From positions 4,278,001 to 4,342,000 of the forward strand of contig CP098528.1 of the NCBI GenBank assembly GCA_030440445.1: a stretch of 64,000 nt of DNA, read 5' to 3'. Shown here in pieces: positions 22,255 through 40,151 of the stretch. The translations under genes and the position numbers were made by a program. Below the pieces are notes generated by a model. That model saw only the letters and a program-made list of their open reading frames with translations. It made no database searches and was not told where the DNA came from. The first letter of the stretch is position 1. Every line of letters begins with the position of its first letter. The DNA comes from Halomonas sp. KG2. GTDB taxonomy: Bacteria > Pseudomonadota > Gammaproteobacteria > Pseudomonadales > Halomonadaceae.

Positions 22255-23229
22255 ATGGGAATGGCGACACTCGACACACTCGCGCCACTCACCACCCATG
22301 ACCTGCTGGCTCTTGGTCAGCGCTTCGGGATCGATTACCGCTTTCCCGAAGCGCCTGACCACTCCCCATCGCCTTACGTGGCTCGCGGGCGTGTGATGGA
22401 TTTCGAGATCACCCCTACCCTACGCGTAACGCACTCGGATCTTGACGTCCTGCACGCTTATGCCTCTACCTCCCGCCGTACCGCTCCGTGGTTTCTCAGT
22501 GTGATACTTGAGGGCTGCATTCACGTGGGGCTCGGCCACCAGTCATTTCAATTACAGGCTGGCGACGCCTTCAGTGCGCACTTCAATCAGCAGACCGGGC
22601 TTGAGGTCTTCCAGCCGGCACCACAACGTTTACGCACTCTCAATGTGTCGATTCTAGATGGCCTCGAGTCTCTTTCTTCCTCGCCTATCAACGTTGCCCC
22701 TCCAGCCACCCCAGTGCTACACACTTGGCAAGTACCGCCGCTCCTTCGCCACAGCCTAGAAACAGCACTGACGTCGAACTGGCCAGCAGAACGGCAGTGC
22801 CTATTATGGCAAGGCCTCGCGTTCCAGTTGCTCGCTCATGGCCTGCCTGCCGCTTGCCTGGAAACCGGCGACAAAAACACACAAGATGGCCCCCCTCCGG
22901 ACCTTTCTCATCGCGATCACCAACGTCTGGAGCGCTTGCGCCAGCAGCTCGAACATTATCCCAACCAGCATTACCGGCTGGAGCAGTTGGCCCGAAATGC
23001 CGCCATGAGCCCTAGTAGCCTACGCACCAAATTCCAGCGCTGTTACGGCTGCTCGATATTCGACTACCTACGGCGTTGTCGCCTGACCCAAGCTCAGACG
23101 TACTTACGCAAAGGTTATAGCGTGCAGCAAACTGCCCACGCCTGCGGCTACCGCCACGCCAGCAACTTTGCTACGGCATATAAGCGGGCCTTTGGTGTCA
23201 CGCCGCATGAGGCCTTCAAGTGTCGCTAA
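22255..23229 (+). CDS. AraC-family transcriptional regulator
   Basis: Regulator of 324 aa with two helix-turn-helix motifs at the C-terminus (YRLEQLARNAAMSPSSLRTKFQRCYG and QQTAHACGYRHASNFATAYKRAFGVTPHEAF, residues ~240-322). The N-terminal part has the strand pattern of PchR-like regulators of siderophore receptors (a cupin-like FSVILEGCIHVGLGHQSFQLQAGD). It lies between two receptor genes and probably activates one or both in response to the ferric siderophore. Starts at 22255 and 22261 are both possible. Confidence 0.85.
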   Translation: MGMATLDTLAPLTTHDLLALGQRFGIDYRFPEAPDHSPSPYVARGRVMDFEITPTLRVTHSDLDVLHAYASTSRRTAPWFLSVILEGCIHVGLGHQSFQLQAGDAFSAHFNQQTGLEVFQPAPQRLRTLNVSILDGLESLSSSPINVAPPATPVLHTWQVPPLLRHSLETALTSNWPAERQCLLWQGLAFQLLAHGLPAACLETGDKNTQDGPPPDLSHRDHQRLERLRQQLEHYPNQHYRLEQLARNAAMSPSSLRTKFQRCYGCSIFDYLRRCRLTQAQTYLRKGYSVQQTAHACGYRHASNFATAYKRAFGVTPHEAFKCR

Positions 23230-23345
23230 CGTACTGTCCATAACGTACTACCCACTACTGCTTGCCGTAAGTTCCCCTGCTCTGCATTTTTTGGCAGCGC
23301 GCATAACCTCTTTGTCATAGCGCATACCTTTTCAAAGCAATTAAA

Positions 23346-23364
23346 CGCAATAATTCTCATTAAC
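23346..23364 (+). promoter_or_regulatory. Fur-box-like site before the FhuA-like receptor gene
   Basis: A 19-bp stretch (CGCAATAATTCTCATTAAC) matches 12 of 19 positions of the palindromic Fur consensus. It lies 38 nt before the receptor start codon, where repression by Fe-Fur would be expected. Confidence 0.5.
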
Positions 23365-23401
23365 ACATTGGTTAATTGCTTCTCATTGCAGGTACACCCC
23401 C

Positions 23402-25528
23402 ATGTCTTTTATGCCTCGCCGTTTGTTACGCTCTCCACTCAGTGCCGCTGTTATCGCGGCGCTCGCGGCACCATCGGTTCACGCTCAGGCAAGTACGCAG
23501 GAAAGTACTCTGGCAAGTACAGCGCTAGGCACTGTGACGGTAACCGCCCAGCAGGCGGCCACTAAAGTCACCACCCCTTTTATTGAAACGCCGCAAAGCG
23601 TTTCTACCATTACCCGTGAACAAATGGATCACCGTGGGGTAGACACCGTTCAGCGCGCCACCGATTACACGCCTGGTGTTTACAGCAACCAGGTGGGTGC
23701 CTCCAACCGCTTCGACTACCTAGTACTACGGGGCTTTTCTGACGGCAGCTTGAGCAACACTTTCTTAGATGGCCTTAAAGTGATGGGCGATGCCAACTCC
23801 CATAGCACGATGCGCATCGATCCGTGGTTTTTAGATAGCATTGAAGTAGTACGCGGGCCTGCCTCGGTGCTCTATGGCCGTGCCTCACCCGGCGGCGTGG
23901 TGGCGCTAAACAGTAAGCGCCCTGAATTTGAACAAGGCGGTGAGCTACGTTTTCGGGTAGGCAATAATAACCAGCGCAGTGCCGCCTTTGACCTCACTGG
24001 TCCGATTGGCGCAGAGCAGCGAGTAGCGTTTCGCCTGACCGGCATTGCCAGCACCGCCGACACCCAGTTCGGCCCCGCCGAAGAGGAGCGCTATGCCATT
24101 GCACCGCGGCTAACCTGGGATATCACCGACGACACCAGCTTAACGGTTGAGGCCTATCTACAGGATGAACCCGAAGGCGGCTACCACTCCGGCGTGCCCT
24201 ATGAAGGAGCGGTAGTACCCAGAAACGGCAAGAAGATCAGTAACAACTTCTTTGATGGCGAAGCCGACTACAACGCCTACGAGCGTACTCAGCGCATGGC
24301 TGGCTATACCCTGGAACATCGCTTTAATGACGACGTAACGGGCCGCCAGCTACTGCGTTATCTCAATTCCGATGTGGTGCTTAACCAAGTCTATGGCTAT
24401 GGCTGGACGTCACCCACCTCTGACGAATTAACCCGCTACTATTCTGGCAGCGATGAATCTCTAGAAGCTTGGACTATCGACAATCAGCTTGAAGCCACCG
24501 TCAGCAGCGGCTTTATGGATCACACACTGCTTGTCGGGGTTGATTACCAGCAGCGGGAAAATGACGTCTCATGGCCTTCTGGGTATTTCCATCCCATCAA
24601 TGCCTTTAATCCTGTCTATGGCAGCGGGCCGATTGAATTTTACGCACCTACCCGTGAACGCCACGAGATTGATCAAACCGGTGTTTATCTACAGGATCAA
24701 ATCGCCGTCGATAACTGGCGCTTCACCCTAGGCGGCCGCTACGACTGGGTAAACATCGACAATACCAACCGCGATAGCGGTGACACCAGCTCACTTAGCG
24801 ATACCCAGTTCAGCGGCCGCGCCGGTGTGGTCTACCTGTTTGATAACGGCGTAGCGCCCTACCTGAGTTACTCCACTGCCTTCACCCCCACTAGTTTTGT
24901 GGATGAAAGTGGCGACCTGCTTCAACCAATGGAAGGCGAACAGTGGGAGGCCGGCCTAAAGTTCCAGCCTAACGGCAGCGCCAGCCAATTCAGCGCGGCG
25001 CTGTTCCATATCAGCCAAGAGAACGTCGCGACCAAGGTGCAGCCGTCCGATCCTTATCGCGCGGTGGGTGAAATTGAGTCCCAAGGACTGGAGCTGGAAG
25101 CACAAACCCAGCTAACGGATACCCTTTCGGTTCAGGCAGGCTATAGCTTCACCGACATCACCTACGCCAAAAGCGATGATGGCAACCAAGGTAACAACGC
25201 AATTTACTCCCCACGCCACCAAGTACAGCTGTGGGGCCACTTTGAGGCCAATAAGGGCTGGCTAAACGGCGTGGATGTCGGTGTTGGCGTACGCCACTAT
25301 GCGGATATTGCCGCTGATCGAGCCAACACTGAAACCGTCCCTGACTACACCCTGGTGGATGCCACCATTGGCTACGATCTAAGCCAACTAGGCGTTGAAG
25401 GAGTGGAAACGCGCCTCAATGTGAACAACCTGCTGGATAAGGAGTACGTAGCCTCCTGCAACTCGCTGGAGTACTGCTACTTCGGCGCCGAGCGCGGTGT
25501 GACCGCCAGCGTTCACTATCGCTTCTAA
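23402..25528 (+). CDS. TonB-dependent siderophore receptor (FhuA/ferrioxamine-type)
   Basis: Outer-membrane receptor of 708 aa with a signal peptide (to VHAQA, ~residue 30). The plug includes TPQSVSTITREQMDHRGVDTV, DYLVLRGFSDGS, FLDGLKVMGD, and SIEVVRGPASVLYGRASPGGVV. The barrel has WRFTLGGRYDWVNIDN and ends with RGVTASVHYRF. This is the TIGR01783 family; the closest types take up hydroxamates such as ferrichrome and ferrioxamine. A Cys pair (ASCNSLEYCYFGAERG) near the C-terminus is typical. The neighbouring fhuD supports a hydroxamate ligand; the exact one is not known. Confidence 0.9.
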   Translation: MSFMPRRLLRSPLSAAVIAALAAPSVHAQASTQESTLASTALGTVTVTAQQAATKVTTPFIETPQSVSTITREQMDHRGVDTVQRATDYTPGVYSNQVGASNRFDYLVLRGFSDGSLSNTFLDGLKVMGDANSHSTMRIDPWFLDSIEVVRGPASVLYGRASPGGVVALNSKRPEFEQGGELRFRVGNNNQRSAAFDLTGPIGAEQRVAFRLTGIASTADTQFGPAEEERYAIAPRLTWDITDDTSLTVEAYLQDEPEGGYHSGVPYEGAVVPRNGKKISNNFFDGEADYNAYERTQRMAGYTLEHRFNDDVTGRQLLRYLNSDVVLNQVYGYGWTSPTSDELTRYYSGSDESLEAWTIDNQLEATVSSGFMDHTLLVGVDYQQRENDVSWPSGYFHPINAFNPVYGSGPIEFYAPTRERHEIDQTGVYLQDQIAVDNWRFTLGGRYDWVNIDNTNRDSGDTSSLSDTQFSGRAGVVYLFDNGVAPYLSYSTAFTPTSFVDESGDLLQPMEGEQWEAGLKFQPNGSASQFSAALFHISQENVATKVQPSDPYRAVGEIESQGLELEAQTQLTDTLSVQAGYSFTDITYAKSDDGNQGNNAIYSPRHQVQLWGHFEANKGWLNGVDVGVGVRHYADIAADRANTETVPDYTLVDATIGYDLSQLGVEGVETRLNVNNLLDKEYVASCNSLEYCYFGAERGVTASVHYRF

Positions 25529-37790: not shown

Positions 37791-38792
37791 TTACGTTCGC
37801 TTATCGTAAACGACGCGATGCAGCGTACCGCTACCACTTTCAAAGGCATCAATATTCGCCAGTGTAGTCTCGGCAATATTGGTTAGCGCCTCGGTAGTGA
37901 AGAAAGCCTGATGACCGGTAATCAGCACATTGTGAAAGGTCGTCAGGCGCATGAACTGGTCATCATCGATCACTTTGTGCGATAGATCCTCGAAGAACAG
38001 TTGCTCCTCCTCTTCGTAAACATCTAGCCCTAAGCGGCCAATTTTGCCGCTTTTCAGACCAGCGATCACCGCTTGGGTATCGACCACTCGACCGCGGCCA
38101 GTGTTGATCAGCATGACACCCTGCTTCATTTGCGCGATGGCATCGGCGTTAACCAGATGATCAGTATCGGGTGTTAACGGGCAGTGCAGCGAAATAATAT
38201 CTGCTTGAGCATAAAGCGACGCCAGCGGCACGTACTCCACAAACGGCTCGGCATTCGGGTTTGGAAAAGGATCGCTGGCAACTACTCGGCAGCCAAAGCC
38301 ATGCATGATATTGGCAAAGATCAAGCCAATCTGCCCAGTGCCAATCACGCCCACGGTTTTGCCATGCAGATCGAACCCCAGCAGTCCGTCTAGGGCAAAG
38401 TTGCCCTCGCGCACTCGGTTGTAAGCGCGATAGGTCATGCGGTTCAGGCTTAACACTAAGGCCACCGCGTGCTCTGCTACGGCATAAGGCGAATAAGCGG
38501 GCACCCGCACCACGGTAATTCCCAACCGTTCGGCTGCCGCCAAGTCAACATGGTTAAATCCAGCCGAGCGCAGTGCTACCAATCGTATGCCGCTAGTGTG
38601 TAGCTGCTCTAAAACATCCGCATACAGATGGTCATTTACAAAAGCGCATACCACTTCAAACCCTTTCGCGAGAGGCGCCGTATCGACGGTCAAGCGCGCA
38701 TCAAAAAAGCTTAATTCGTGTCGATTCGAGGCATTAGCACGAGTAAGGAAGGTTTCGTCATAAGGCTTAGCGCTAAAAACGGCAACGCGCAT
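37791..38792 (-). CDS. ldhA: D-lactate dehydrogenase / 2-hydroxyacid dehydrogenase (LdhA type)
   Basis: NAD-dependent enzyme of 333 aa that interconverts pyruvate and D-lactate in fermentation. Seen: [11 protein letters not shown], the nucleotide-binding [21 protein letters not shown], catalytic Arg region [15 protein letters not shown], Glu in [16 protein letters not shown] and His in [15 protein letters not shown], which is the LdhA pattern. The frame is open to 38882; the ATG at 38792 with AGGAGA before it is the likely start. An ANR/FNR-like half site lies upstream (38869-38882). Confidence 0.9.
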
Positions 38793-38882: not shown

Positions 38883-38898
38883 AGAAAGATGCCACTAG

Positions 38899-39027
38899 AA
38901 AAAAAGAAAGCCGCTCCAAGGGAGCGGCAAAAGACCGTGACTAGCAAGGAAAGAGGAACCATGACAGGAAACTGGCGCTGATCTTTGCAATAGCGTCGTG
39001 GTTGCCAATGTTTCAGCAAACACGGCC
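38899..39027 (-). ncRNA. Second unit of a tandem small-RNA-like pair
   Basis: This ~125-nt stretch repeats the body of the first unit (39033-39154) at a distance of 134 bp. Shared blocks, read on the minus strand, are TTGGCAACCACGAC, CGCCAGTTTCCTGTCATGGTT and GCTAGTCACGGTCTTTTG. It ends with its own intrinsic terminator: stem GCCGCTCC / GGAGCGGC (38910-38928) followed by a T-rich tail. I see no separate promoter, so it would be made by read-through of the first unit, giving a double-length RNA. Confidence 0.55.
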
Positions 39028-39032
39028 ACTAG

Positions 39033-39154
39033 AAAAAAAAGAAGCCGCTCCAAGCGGGAGCGGCAAAAGACCGTGACTAGCAATGAGAGGGAGAAACCAT
39101 GACAGGAAACTGGCGGTTTCTGTCGTGGTTGCCAACGTCTCATTAAACGCTGAC
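39033..39154 (-). ncRNA. Putative Fur-controlled small RNA (first unit, PrrF-like layout)
   Basis: About 122 nt from a predicted start near 39154 to the T-run ending at 39033. A strong intrinsic terminator closes it: 8-bp stem GCCGCTCC / GGAGCGGC at 39044-39064, then TTC and eight T. It is driven by a near-consensus sigma-70 promoter overlapped by a Fur box. No protein longer than a few residues is plausible. Tandem, nearly duplicated, Fur-repressed sRNAs are the hallmark of Pseudomonas PrrF1/PrrF2, functional counterparts of RyhB. Sequence homology to those was not established. Confidence 0.65.
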
Positions 39155-39160
39155 AATCAC

Positions 39161-39189
39161 AATATAATCATTCTCATTTACAACGTCAA
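39161..39189 (-). promoter_or_regulatory. Sigma-70 promoter with overlapping Fur box
   Basis: On the minus strand TTGACG (39189-39184), a 17-nt spacer, then TATATT (39166-39161): an almost ideal promoter. The spacer and -10 lie inside a 19-bp Fur-like site (39163-39181) that matches 14 of 19 positions of the consensus palindrome. Fe-Fur binding here would block RNA polymerase. Confidence 0.75.
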
Positions 39190-39236: not shown

Positions 39237-40151
39237 CTAGCCCACCAGTTGCAACCAAACGGGCAACGTCAGCATCGCTAACAGCGTCTGGCCGGTAATA
39301 ATTGCCGCCATAAGTTCTGCATCACCTCCCAGCTGCCGAGCAAGAATGTAAGCAGATGTGGCGGTAGGCAGCGCTGCAAACAGCAGCGCCACATCACGAC
39401 TGATAGGGTCCAGCCCCACCAGCCACGCTAATAACAGCACCACCGCAGGCATTAACAGCAGCTTGATGCTATTCGTCGCTATCACGCCACGATCAAGCCG
39501 CAGCAGTGCTGCAGGGCGCAGCGCCACGCCCACGGCAATGAGCCCTAACGGCAGCGCCGCGCCACCCAACAACCCGACGGTATCCTCGCTCCAACCGGGC
39601 AAGCCAACCCCCGAAAGATTGAGTCCGATACCTGCCAGACAGGACAAAATCAGCGGATTTTTAGCCAGTGCGAGGGCACTTTGGCCAAGACTTCCACTGC
39701 CCAGCGTCCCTGCCGCGACAAAGCTTGCGACGCACATGACGTTCACCACCGGTACCATGAGTGCCACCGCCACAGCGGCAGTAGTCGCCCCCATGCTGCC
39801 ATGCAATGCCGCGGCCCCTGCGACACCCACGTAGGTGTTAAAACGCACGGCGCCTTGGAATACCGACGTGAACGCCGCAGGCGTTAAGCCAAGGTAACCA
39901 CGACAGCGCCATAGCAACAGACCCAAAACCCCCATCGTGCCGAGCAATACCAACGCGATGCGCCCAACCGGTACTTGGCTGACATCAGCAGTGGCCAGCG
40001 TACCTATCAGCATTGCTGGAAATAGCACAAAGTAGATCAGACGCTCCATTTGCGGCCAGAACGTAGCACTTGGCCAACGGCCATAGCCAATGGCAGCGCC
40101 CAGTAAAATCAATAAAAACAGTGGCCCAAGTGCGCCAGTAATACTCTCCAT
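39237..40151 (-). CDS. AEC family transporter (auxin efflux carrier-like)
   Basis: Inner-membrane protein of 304 aa with about ten predicted spans in two halves. The N-terminus ALGPLFLLILLGAAIGYGRW and the conserved FNTYVGVAGAAALHG (an AEC pore motif with N-x-Y) are seen, and the second half repeats the topology (PLGLIAVGVALRPAALLR). Bacterial AEC proteins export or import malate, malonate and other carboxylates. The substrate here is unknown. The stop codon lies 48 nt beyond the -35 box of the sRNA promoter. Confidence 0.85.
   Translation of the reverse strand: MESITGALGPLFLLILLGAAIGYGRWPSATFWPQMERLIYFVLFPAMLIGTLATADVSQVPVGRIALVLLGTMGVLGLLLWRCRGYLGLTPAAFTSVFQGAVRFNTYVGVAGAAALHGSMGATTAAVAVALMVPVVNVMCVASFVAAGTLGSGSLGQSALALAKNPLILSCLAGIGLNLSGVGLPGWSEDTVGLLGGAALPLGLIAVGVALRPAALLRLDRGVIATNSIKLLLMPAVVLLLAWLVGLDPISRDVALLFAALPTATSAYILARQLGGDAELMAAIITGQTLLAMLTLPVWLQLVG

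Follow-up and report, generated by a model that had tools for sequence, protein, structure and literature searches.

A tandem small RNA locus in Halomonas sp. KG2, very probably a distant relative of PrrF behind a single iron-controlled promoter

What is encoded between the genes for an AEC-type transporter and a 2-hydroxyacid dehydrogenase in Halomonas sp. KG2? The intergenic stretch in question occupies the minus strand at 39189-38901 of the 64-kb window, by which we mean the whole stretch of DNA analysed. A preliminary description, made from the letters of the sequence, had seen here two units of about 120 nt with long blocks in common, each closed by an intrinsic terminator, and a near-ideal sigma-70 promoter at the first unit only. 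All of these features were recovered. A motif scan returned the promoter and detected no promoter-like site before unit 2 on its strand, a terminator stem of 8 pairs closes each unit, and the two units share four repeat blocks of 25-34 nt that are 79-96% identical and offset by 127-138 nt (Table 1). The spacing of 134 bp given earlier holds for the terminators but not for the cores, which are 136 nt apart. When the genome was searched with its own locus, this was the only one found. From the results presented below, the locus very probably specifies a small RNA for iron shortage, distantly related to PrrF and arranged in tandem behind one iron-controlled promoter.

Table 1. Features of the locus and of its neighbours, in window coordinates
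Feature	Position	Strand	Remark
Sigma-70 promoter, TTGACG-17-TATATT	39161..39189	-	Motif scan; same promoter before unit 1 in six other array genomes
Predicted Fur-type site, across spacer and -10	39163..39181	-	14/19 to consensus
Unit 1, PrrF-type sRNA, ~120 nt	39036..39155	-	5' end inferred from position of -10
Unit 1 stem-loop 1	39130..39155	-	Compensatory changes in 4/8 pairs counted
Unit 1 stem-loop 2	39096..39129	-	Compensatory change in 1/9 pairs counted
Unit 1 CCCUCUCAU, predicted seed for acnB ribosome-binding site	39083..39091	-	
Unit 1 UUGCUAGUCACGG, contains invariant PrrF core; predicted seed for sdhC start codon	39071..39083	-	
Unit 1 intrinsic terminator, 8 pairs and U-run	39044..39064	-	
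Unit 2, related, promoterless; sdhC seed kept, acnB seed absent	38901..39031	-	
Unit 2 UUGCUAGUCACGG core	38935..38947	-	
Unit 2 intrinsic terminator, 8 pairs and U-run	38910..38928	-	
AEC-type transporter gene (Mem_trans), upstream neighbour	39237..40151	-	
D-isomer 2-hydroxyacid (lactate) dehydrogenase gene, downstream neighbour	37791..38792	-	ATG chosen by eye

Rfam searched at the gathering threshold gave no match in the window. At a permissive threshold the PrrF family (RF00444) matched unit 1 together with its promoter over all 150 positions, with 47.5 bits (E 4.3e-7), and the 13 matches at E<=10 included none to RyhB- or NrrF-type families. The gathering cut-off of RF00444 is 90 bits. 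Since this score was reached neither at the locus nor in any of 201 genomes of the family, we term the locus a PrrF homologue and not an Rfam member, and PrrF is likely to have gone unannotated in these genomes. The conserved core UCUCC...GCUARUCACGGU, which membership of PrrF requires, is present between hairpin 2 and the terminator, and the arrangement of two hairpins and an intrinsic terminator within about 110-120 nt is that of PrrF. In order to search in the opposite direction, we used a covariance model of 20 sequences, promoter excluded, of which 19 were units from the window genus (unit 1 of the window included, unit 2 left out) and one came from another genus. With this model unit 1 scored 140.2 bits and unit 2 scored 107.8 bits (E 1.5e-21), and the rest of the 64 kb contained just two other matches, at E 0.27 and 2.5. 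Although built without a Pseudomonas sequence, it recognized 13 of 13 sources supplied from other genera (E 5e-17 to 4e-3) as well as four of four from outside the family (L239, 3e-7; L230, 9e-5; L232, 3e-4; L231, 1e-3). The core pattern had been used to retrieve the latter four, for which the core itself is thus not independent evidence; RF00444 reports PrrF in three of them at 61-84 bits. The reciprocal matches support homology in both directions. Together with the full-length RF00444 match and the matches across the family, they turn what had been described as a PrrF-like architecture into homology, and we are highly confident that a gene for a PrrF-homologous sRNA is present at this locus.

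Conservation across Halomonas and Vreelandella had been set beforehand as a test by which the proposal could fail. When 82 genomes of the genus (Vreelandella, formerly Halomonas) were searched by DNA, every one contained the locus. Using RF00444 at E<=0.01, matches were obtained in 138 of the 201 family genomes (best 75 bits, none above the cut-off) and in none of 14 control genomes, even though this search is insensitive and missed many genomes of the window genus that were positive by DNA. The range of PrrF is thereby extended to 23 of the 24 Halomonadaceae genera searched. A near-invariant core, TCTCCTCATCAAGCTAGTCACGGTC, runs throughout the aligned loci and takes the form TCTCCCTCTCATTGCTAGTCACGGTC in the window genus. 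The exact 13-mer GCTARTCACGGTC occurred in 216 of 236 family genomes, a count that is weak because a backwards control matches about as often; the pattern is too short, and it was rejected for counting copies. The 23-nt PrrF core, allowing at most 2 mismatches, was found in 28 of 293 genomes of the order (backwards control, 0), of which six belong to this family and 22 to five others; the window genus gave no match. Three of the 22, which are Pseudomonas-like by inference, carry core copies 213-223 nt apart, in contrast to the 136 nt seen here. The literature searched, which lay mostly outside subscription papers, yielded no account of a PrrF native to Halomonas. Within that literature the wide presence in Halomonadaceae, the predicted sdhC and acnB sites and the one-promoter arrays are new, the PrrF homologue itself being of a known kind.

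Unit 1 is predicted to fold into two hairpins, an unpaired core of 31 nt and the terminator (z −3.86; 0/200 shuffles). To probe this structure, we placed it on the 20-sequence alignment. Pairing was preserved in 96.4% of cells compared with 92.5% after shuffling, pairs changed on both sides numbered 8 compared with 3.5, and covariation was 0.223 compared with 0.142, values that were reached in 0/500 shuffles each. The units thus show the compensatory changes that had been looked for. Sliding the partner by 1-3 columns lowered pairing to 31-50%. The count of further pair types was not above that in shuffles (464/500). This alignment, with the unit 1 structure, replaced an RNAalifold analysis of 45 family units that had yielded 4 pairs only, because terminators misalign in the underlying MAFFT alignment; the 45 units were left after 10 of 55 non-redundant ones had been removed for odd cuts or inserts (L128 twice, L129, L139, L140, L097, L108, L109, L110 and L112). 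In a separate observation, an insert of ~15-35 nt lies in the middle of the core in L108-L110 and L112 (genomes G071, G072, G019 and G034) and separates the acnB-type seed from the sdhC-type seed. Unit 2 is predicted to fold otherwise, with part of its core paired with inter-unit sequence (z −2.8; −1.5 for a shorter cut).

The promoter had been described as overlapped by a Fur box matching 14 of 19 consensus positions. The match is present, but a match of this quality is not rare by itself: the window contains five 14/19 Fur-like sites, where shuffles give 0.44 per strand. The 19-bp score alone is not significant and was dropped as evidence. The predicted site is made credible by its placement over the promoter and by its conservation. 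For the loci of the genus the search started from the cores, and each one that lies outside the seven arrays discussed below proved to have a Fur-like site 60-175 nt upstream. A Fur-like site is also found at the aligned family loci, which were chosen by such a site, so their promoters do not form an independent count. The genome has both a fur gene and an hfq gene. Elsewhere in the window, a 13/19 site (GTTAATGAGAATTATTGCG, at 23346 on the minus strand) closely precedes a frame of 708 aa (23402-25528, plus strand); by eye, this frame resembles a TonB-dependent siderophore receptor and its neighbour an AraC-type regulator (22255-23229). Perhaps 23330-23400 is another Fur-regulated locus; 13/19 matches are common by chance.

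The preliminary description had suggested sodB, sdh and acn as targets. Conserved complementarity was found for sdh (at sdhC) and acn (at acnB), both of them TCA-cycle genes, but no convincing site was found for sodB, a classic target, which offers at most 5-7 contiguous pairs (27 of 30 loci read) and has free duplex energies that are mostly unremarkable compared with shuffles. The sdhC start was compared across the genus in the 30 best-scoring of 41 genomes; 29 of these loci have exactly GCCGTGAATAGCAAACGACCC, and one departs from it at a single base. In the window genome 12 of 13 positions form Watson-Crick pairs with UUGCUAGUCACGG over the GTG start codon; this number was reached in 1/3000 shuffles, and the best of 50 gene starts in the window reached 10. 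The energy of the duplex between core and sdhC start is better than that of about 93-94% of shuffles (as good in 69/1000 for unit 1 and 56/1000 for unit 2). Among 59 sdhC loci of the family, codons inside the pairing stretch are almost fixed (AAT in 55/55, AGC in 53/55), whereas later codons mostly vary, the second Asn being split 40/19. Nevertheless, two codons with third bases beyond the stretch vary almost as little (AAA 57/59 and, just downstream, GTA 56/59). The codon conservation is therefore suggestive only, and its extension past the pairing stretch slightly lowers our confidence in the two targets. The 11-nt motif CCGTGANTAGC is not enriched genome-wide, with 12 matches, two of them in the sRNA itself, compared with 15 for the backwards control. 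At the 10 places outside the sRNA, sdhC alone has the motif on the start of a recognized gene; at another, an unrecognized 132-aa frame begins 22 nt on.

For acnB, which could be read in 29 of the 30 genus loci, the ribosome-binding site AUGAGAGGG offers 9-10 contiguous pairs with CCCUCUCAU in 26/29. Nine pairs were reached in 24/5000 shuffles, and the best of 50 window starts reached 7. The site includes AGAGGG and is Shine-Dalgarno-like, and early codons are often A-rich in general; both target sites could therefore be conserved for other reasons. On balance, sdhC and acnB are likely direct targets, judged by complementarity. In one genome acnB was matched in two pieces that overlap, one of them interrupted by a TGA (G049:C1:1708770-1709227), as after a frameshift or an assembly error.

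Homology, conservation, structure, the promoter and terminators, target complementarity and the promoterless state of unit 2 were read directly from sequence, and from them we infer a course of events in which Fur binding, transcription, Hfq dependence, repression and read-through would be the working steps. When iron is low, Fur would leave the promoter and unit 1 would be transcribed as an RNA of ~120 nt, comprising two hairpins, an unpaired core and an intrinsic terminator. The core would pair with the sdhC start codon via UUGCUAGUCACGG and with the acnB ribosome-binding site via CCCUCUCAU, probably with Hfq, and reduced synthesis of iron-using TCA enzymes would spare iron. Some polymerases may read past the first terminator, and the extended transcript would then carry the core of unit 2 as well. 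We regard this model as a whole, that is, a Fur-repressed iron-starvation sRNA that is homologous to Pseudomonas PrrF and acts on sdhC and acnB, as probable.

How common is the arrangement of several units behind one promoter? Loci were fetched from 81 of the 82 genus genomes (G053 was left out); that of G076 (L111) is truncated where its contig stops, and 80 genomes were classified. Single-promoter arrays are rare, being found in seven of the 80, with two units in G000, three in G078, G080 and G055, four in G002 and G043, and five in G048. In the other 73 genomes each core found in the stretch has its own Fur-like site at the distance given above, and 19 of the 73 carry two or three whole copies with such sites. 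Three further arrays were scanned, and each has one 10/12 promoter on the array strand and several terminators (three for 3 units in L116, four for 5 in L115, and three full ones for 4 in L113). No site of at least 10/12 was detected before downstream units in the four arrays scanned; L115 contains promoter-like 9/12 sites within units 2-5, which may be weak internal promoters. Misassembly is unlikely, as G048 and G043 are single-contig assemblies.

Units in the arrays are spaced by 133-140, 181-184 or 194-195 nt. Reading the inter-unit spacer by eye, we could recognize a decayed Fur promoter in G055, where unit 3 retains a Fur-like match at 4 mismatches, and a further decayed one in G002 and G043; the inner promoter is gone from the spacer in G000, G078, G048 and G080. 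A quick-search tree of the neighbouring AEC gene, with 75 rows, calls for 3 changes of array state, gains and losses being indistinguishable, and places G055 apart from the other six arrays. Outside the window genus, the closest tandem spacing among the family matches listed is 199 nt (L125), with two promoters. In G048 the units between the first and the last are almost identical to each other and are hybrids of these two. The arrays seem to be derived, by tandem duplication of the whole gene, then decay and later deletion of the inner promoter, and finally expansion by unequal crossing-over. The natural series from own promoters through decayed to deleted ones shows how copies of an sRNA gene may come to lie behind a single promoter. 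In L089, L090 and L094 (G018, G016 and G056), whole copies with their own promoters flank the dehydrogenase gene ~1.3 kb apart, as if the duplication had carried this gene along.

We put the chance that unit 2 is usefully transcribed at about even. Among the 24 units of the seven arrays, unit 1 carries both seeds in 7/7, and the 17 downstream units have the exact sdhC seed in 14 and the acnB seed in 10. The last units are often the most altered, and interior ones (G080 unit 2, G048 unit 3, G078 unit 2) are altered too. This pattern of seeds and terminators fits specialization and decay from weak transcription behind strong terminators about equally. Slightly short of an even chance is the reading that unit 1 is the working sRNA and that unit 2 and other distal units are decaying duplicates, hardly transcribed because unit 1 closes with a strong terminator. 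The missing promoters before downstream units are consistent with it, as are the loss of the acnB seed from the last unit in 5/7 arrays and the altered sdhC seed in 2/7, the weaker terminator stem or U-run in the last units of G002, G048, G055 and G078, the hybrid interior units of G048, which unequal crossing-over would be expected to produce, and the partly paired core in the fold of window unit 2. However, core and terminator of that unit are intact, most downstream units retain the exact sdhC seed, similar last units persist in several species, and the 9/12 sites of L115 would allow some internal transcription. A tentative and rather doubtful extension is that in one Vreelandella lineage, and separately in G055, tandem PrrF genes have become a polycistronic sRNA array, in which a single Fur promoter serves 2-5 units, leaky terminators give a graded ladder of RNAs with one to five cores, and position sets both dose and target choice; if so, unit 1 would serve sdhC and acnB, and distal units often sdhC only.

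It is also conceivable, but improbable, that a signal such as heme governs read-through of terminator 1 and that the long RNA has targets of its own through the inter-unit sequence. PrrH of P. aeruginosa is a heme-regulated read-through product (PMC2851614), and a stable fold is predicted for the two-unit RNA (z −5.35), but the inter-unit sequence is unlike between array groups (periods of ~135, 183 and 194 nt) and 55 of the 90 genus loci read consist of a single unit. Less probable still is that the units act as attenuators in a Fur-controlled leader of the 2-hydroxyacid dehydrogenase gene downstream. The ATG of this gene follows the last terminator at about 110-120 nt on the same strand, yet the fetched flanks, mostly of 1.5 kb, showed no such gene in 46 of 90 loci of the genus, compared with 3/90 that showed no AEC gene. 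Finally, we give almost no credence to chance repeats or a small coding gene. An open frame of 82 aa does exist (38895-39143), but the units in close relatives lie 133, 135, 136 or 140 nt apart, which destroys a common frame, the changes follow base pairing and the core is invariant across genera.

In comparison with known systems, the PrrF homologue would act, as RyhB, NrrF, HrrF and ArrF do, as a Fur-repressed iron-sparing sRNA. The sdh genes are among the targets of RyhB and reportedly of NrrF. RyhB is without sequence homology to PrrF (PMC4211561). The closest likeness is to PrrF1, PrrF2 and PrrH of P. aeruginosa (RF00444), with which the locus shares the core GCUARUCACGGU, a Fur-type promoter, two hairpins and a terminator, a length of about 115-120 nt, tandem units and sdh and acnB as targets, here predicted; in P. 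aeruginosa sdhCDAB and acnB are among the PrrF-regulated genes (PMC2851614). The 5′ part of the core is CUCCCUCUCAUUG here and CUCCUCAUCARG in PrrF, and Vreelandella relatives have up to five units, unlike the P. aeruginosa prrF locus. The earlier comparison with PrrF/PrrH holds only in part, since prrF2 has its own Fur-regulated promoter (PMC2851614) and unit 2 of the window has none. A row of related sRNAs served by a single promoter is known in Rhodobacter sphaeroides as CcsR1-4 (PMC10253847), which belong to another family and have an RpoHI/RpoHII promoter, a terminator at the 3′ end and processing by RNase E with the CcaF1 protein; the window array has a terminator for each unit and no protein gene within it. 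P. aeruginosa PrrF1 serves as a synthetic sRNA scaffold in Halomonas bluephagenesis, and if this host has a native PrrF homologue the scaffold may not act independently of the host's own system.
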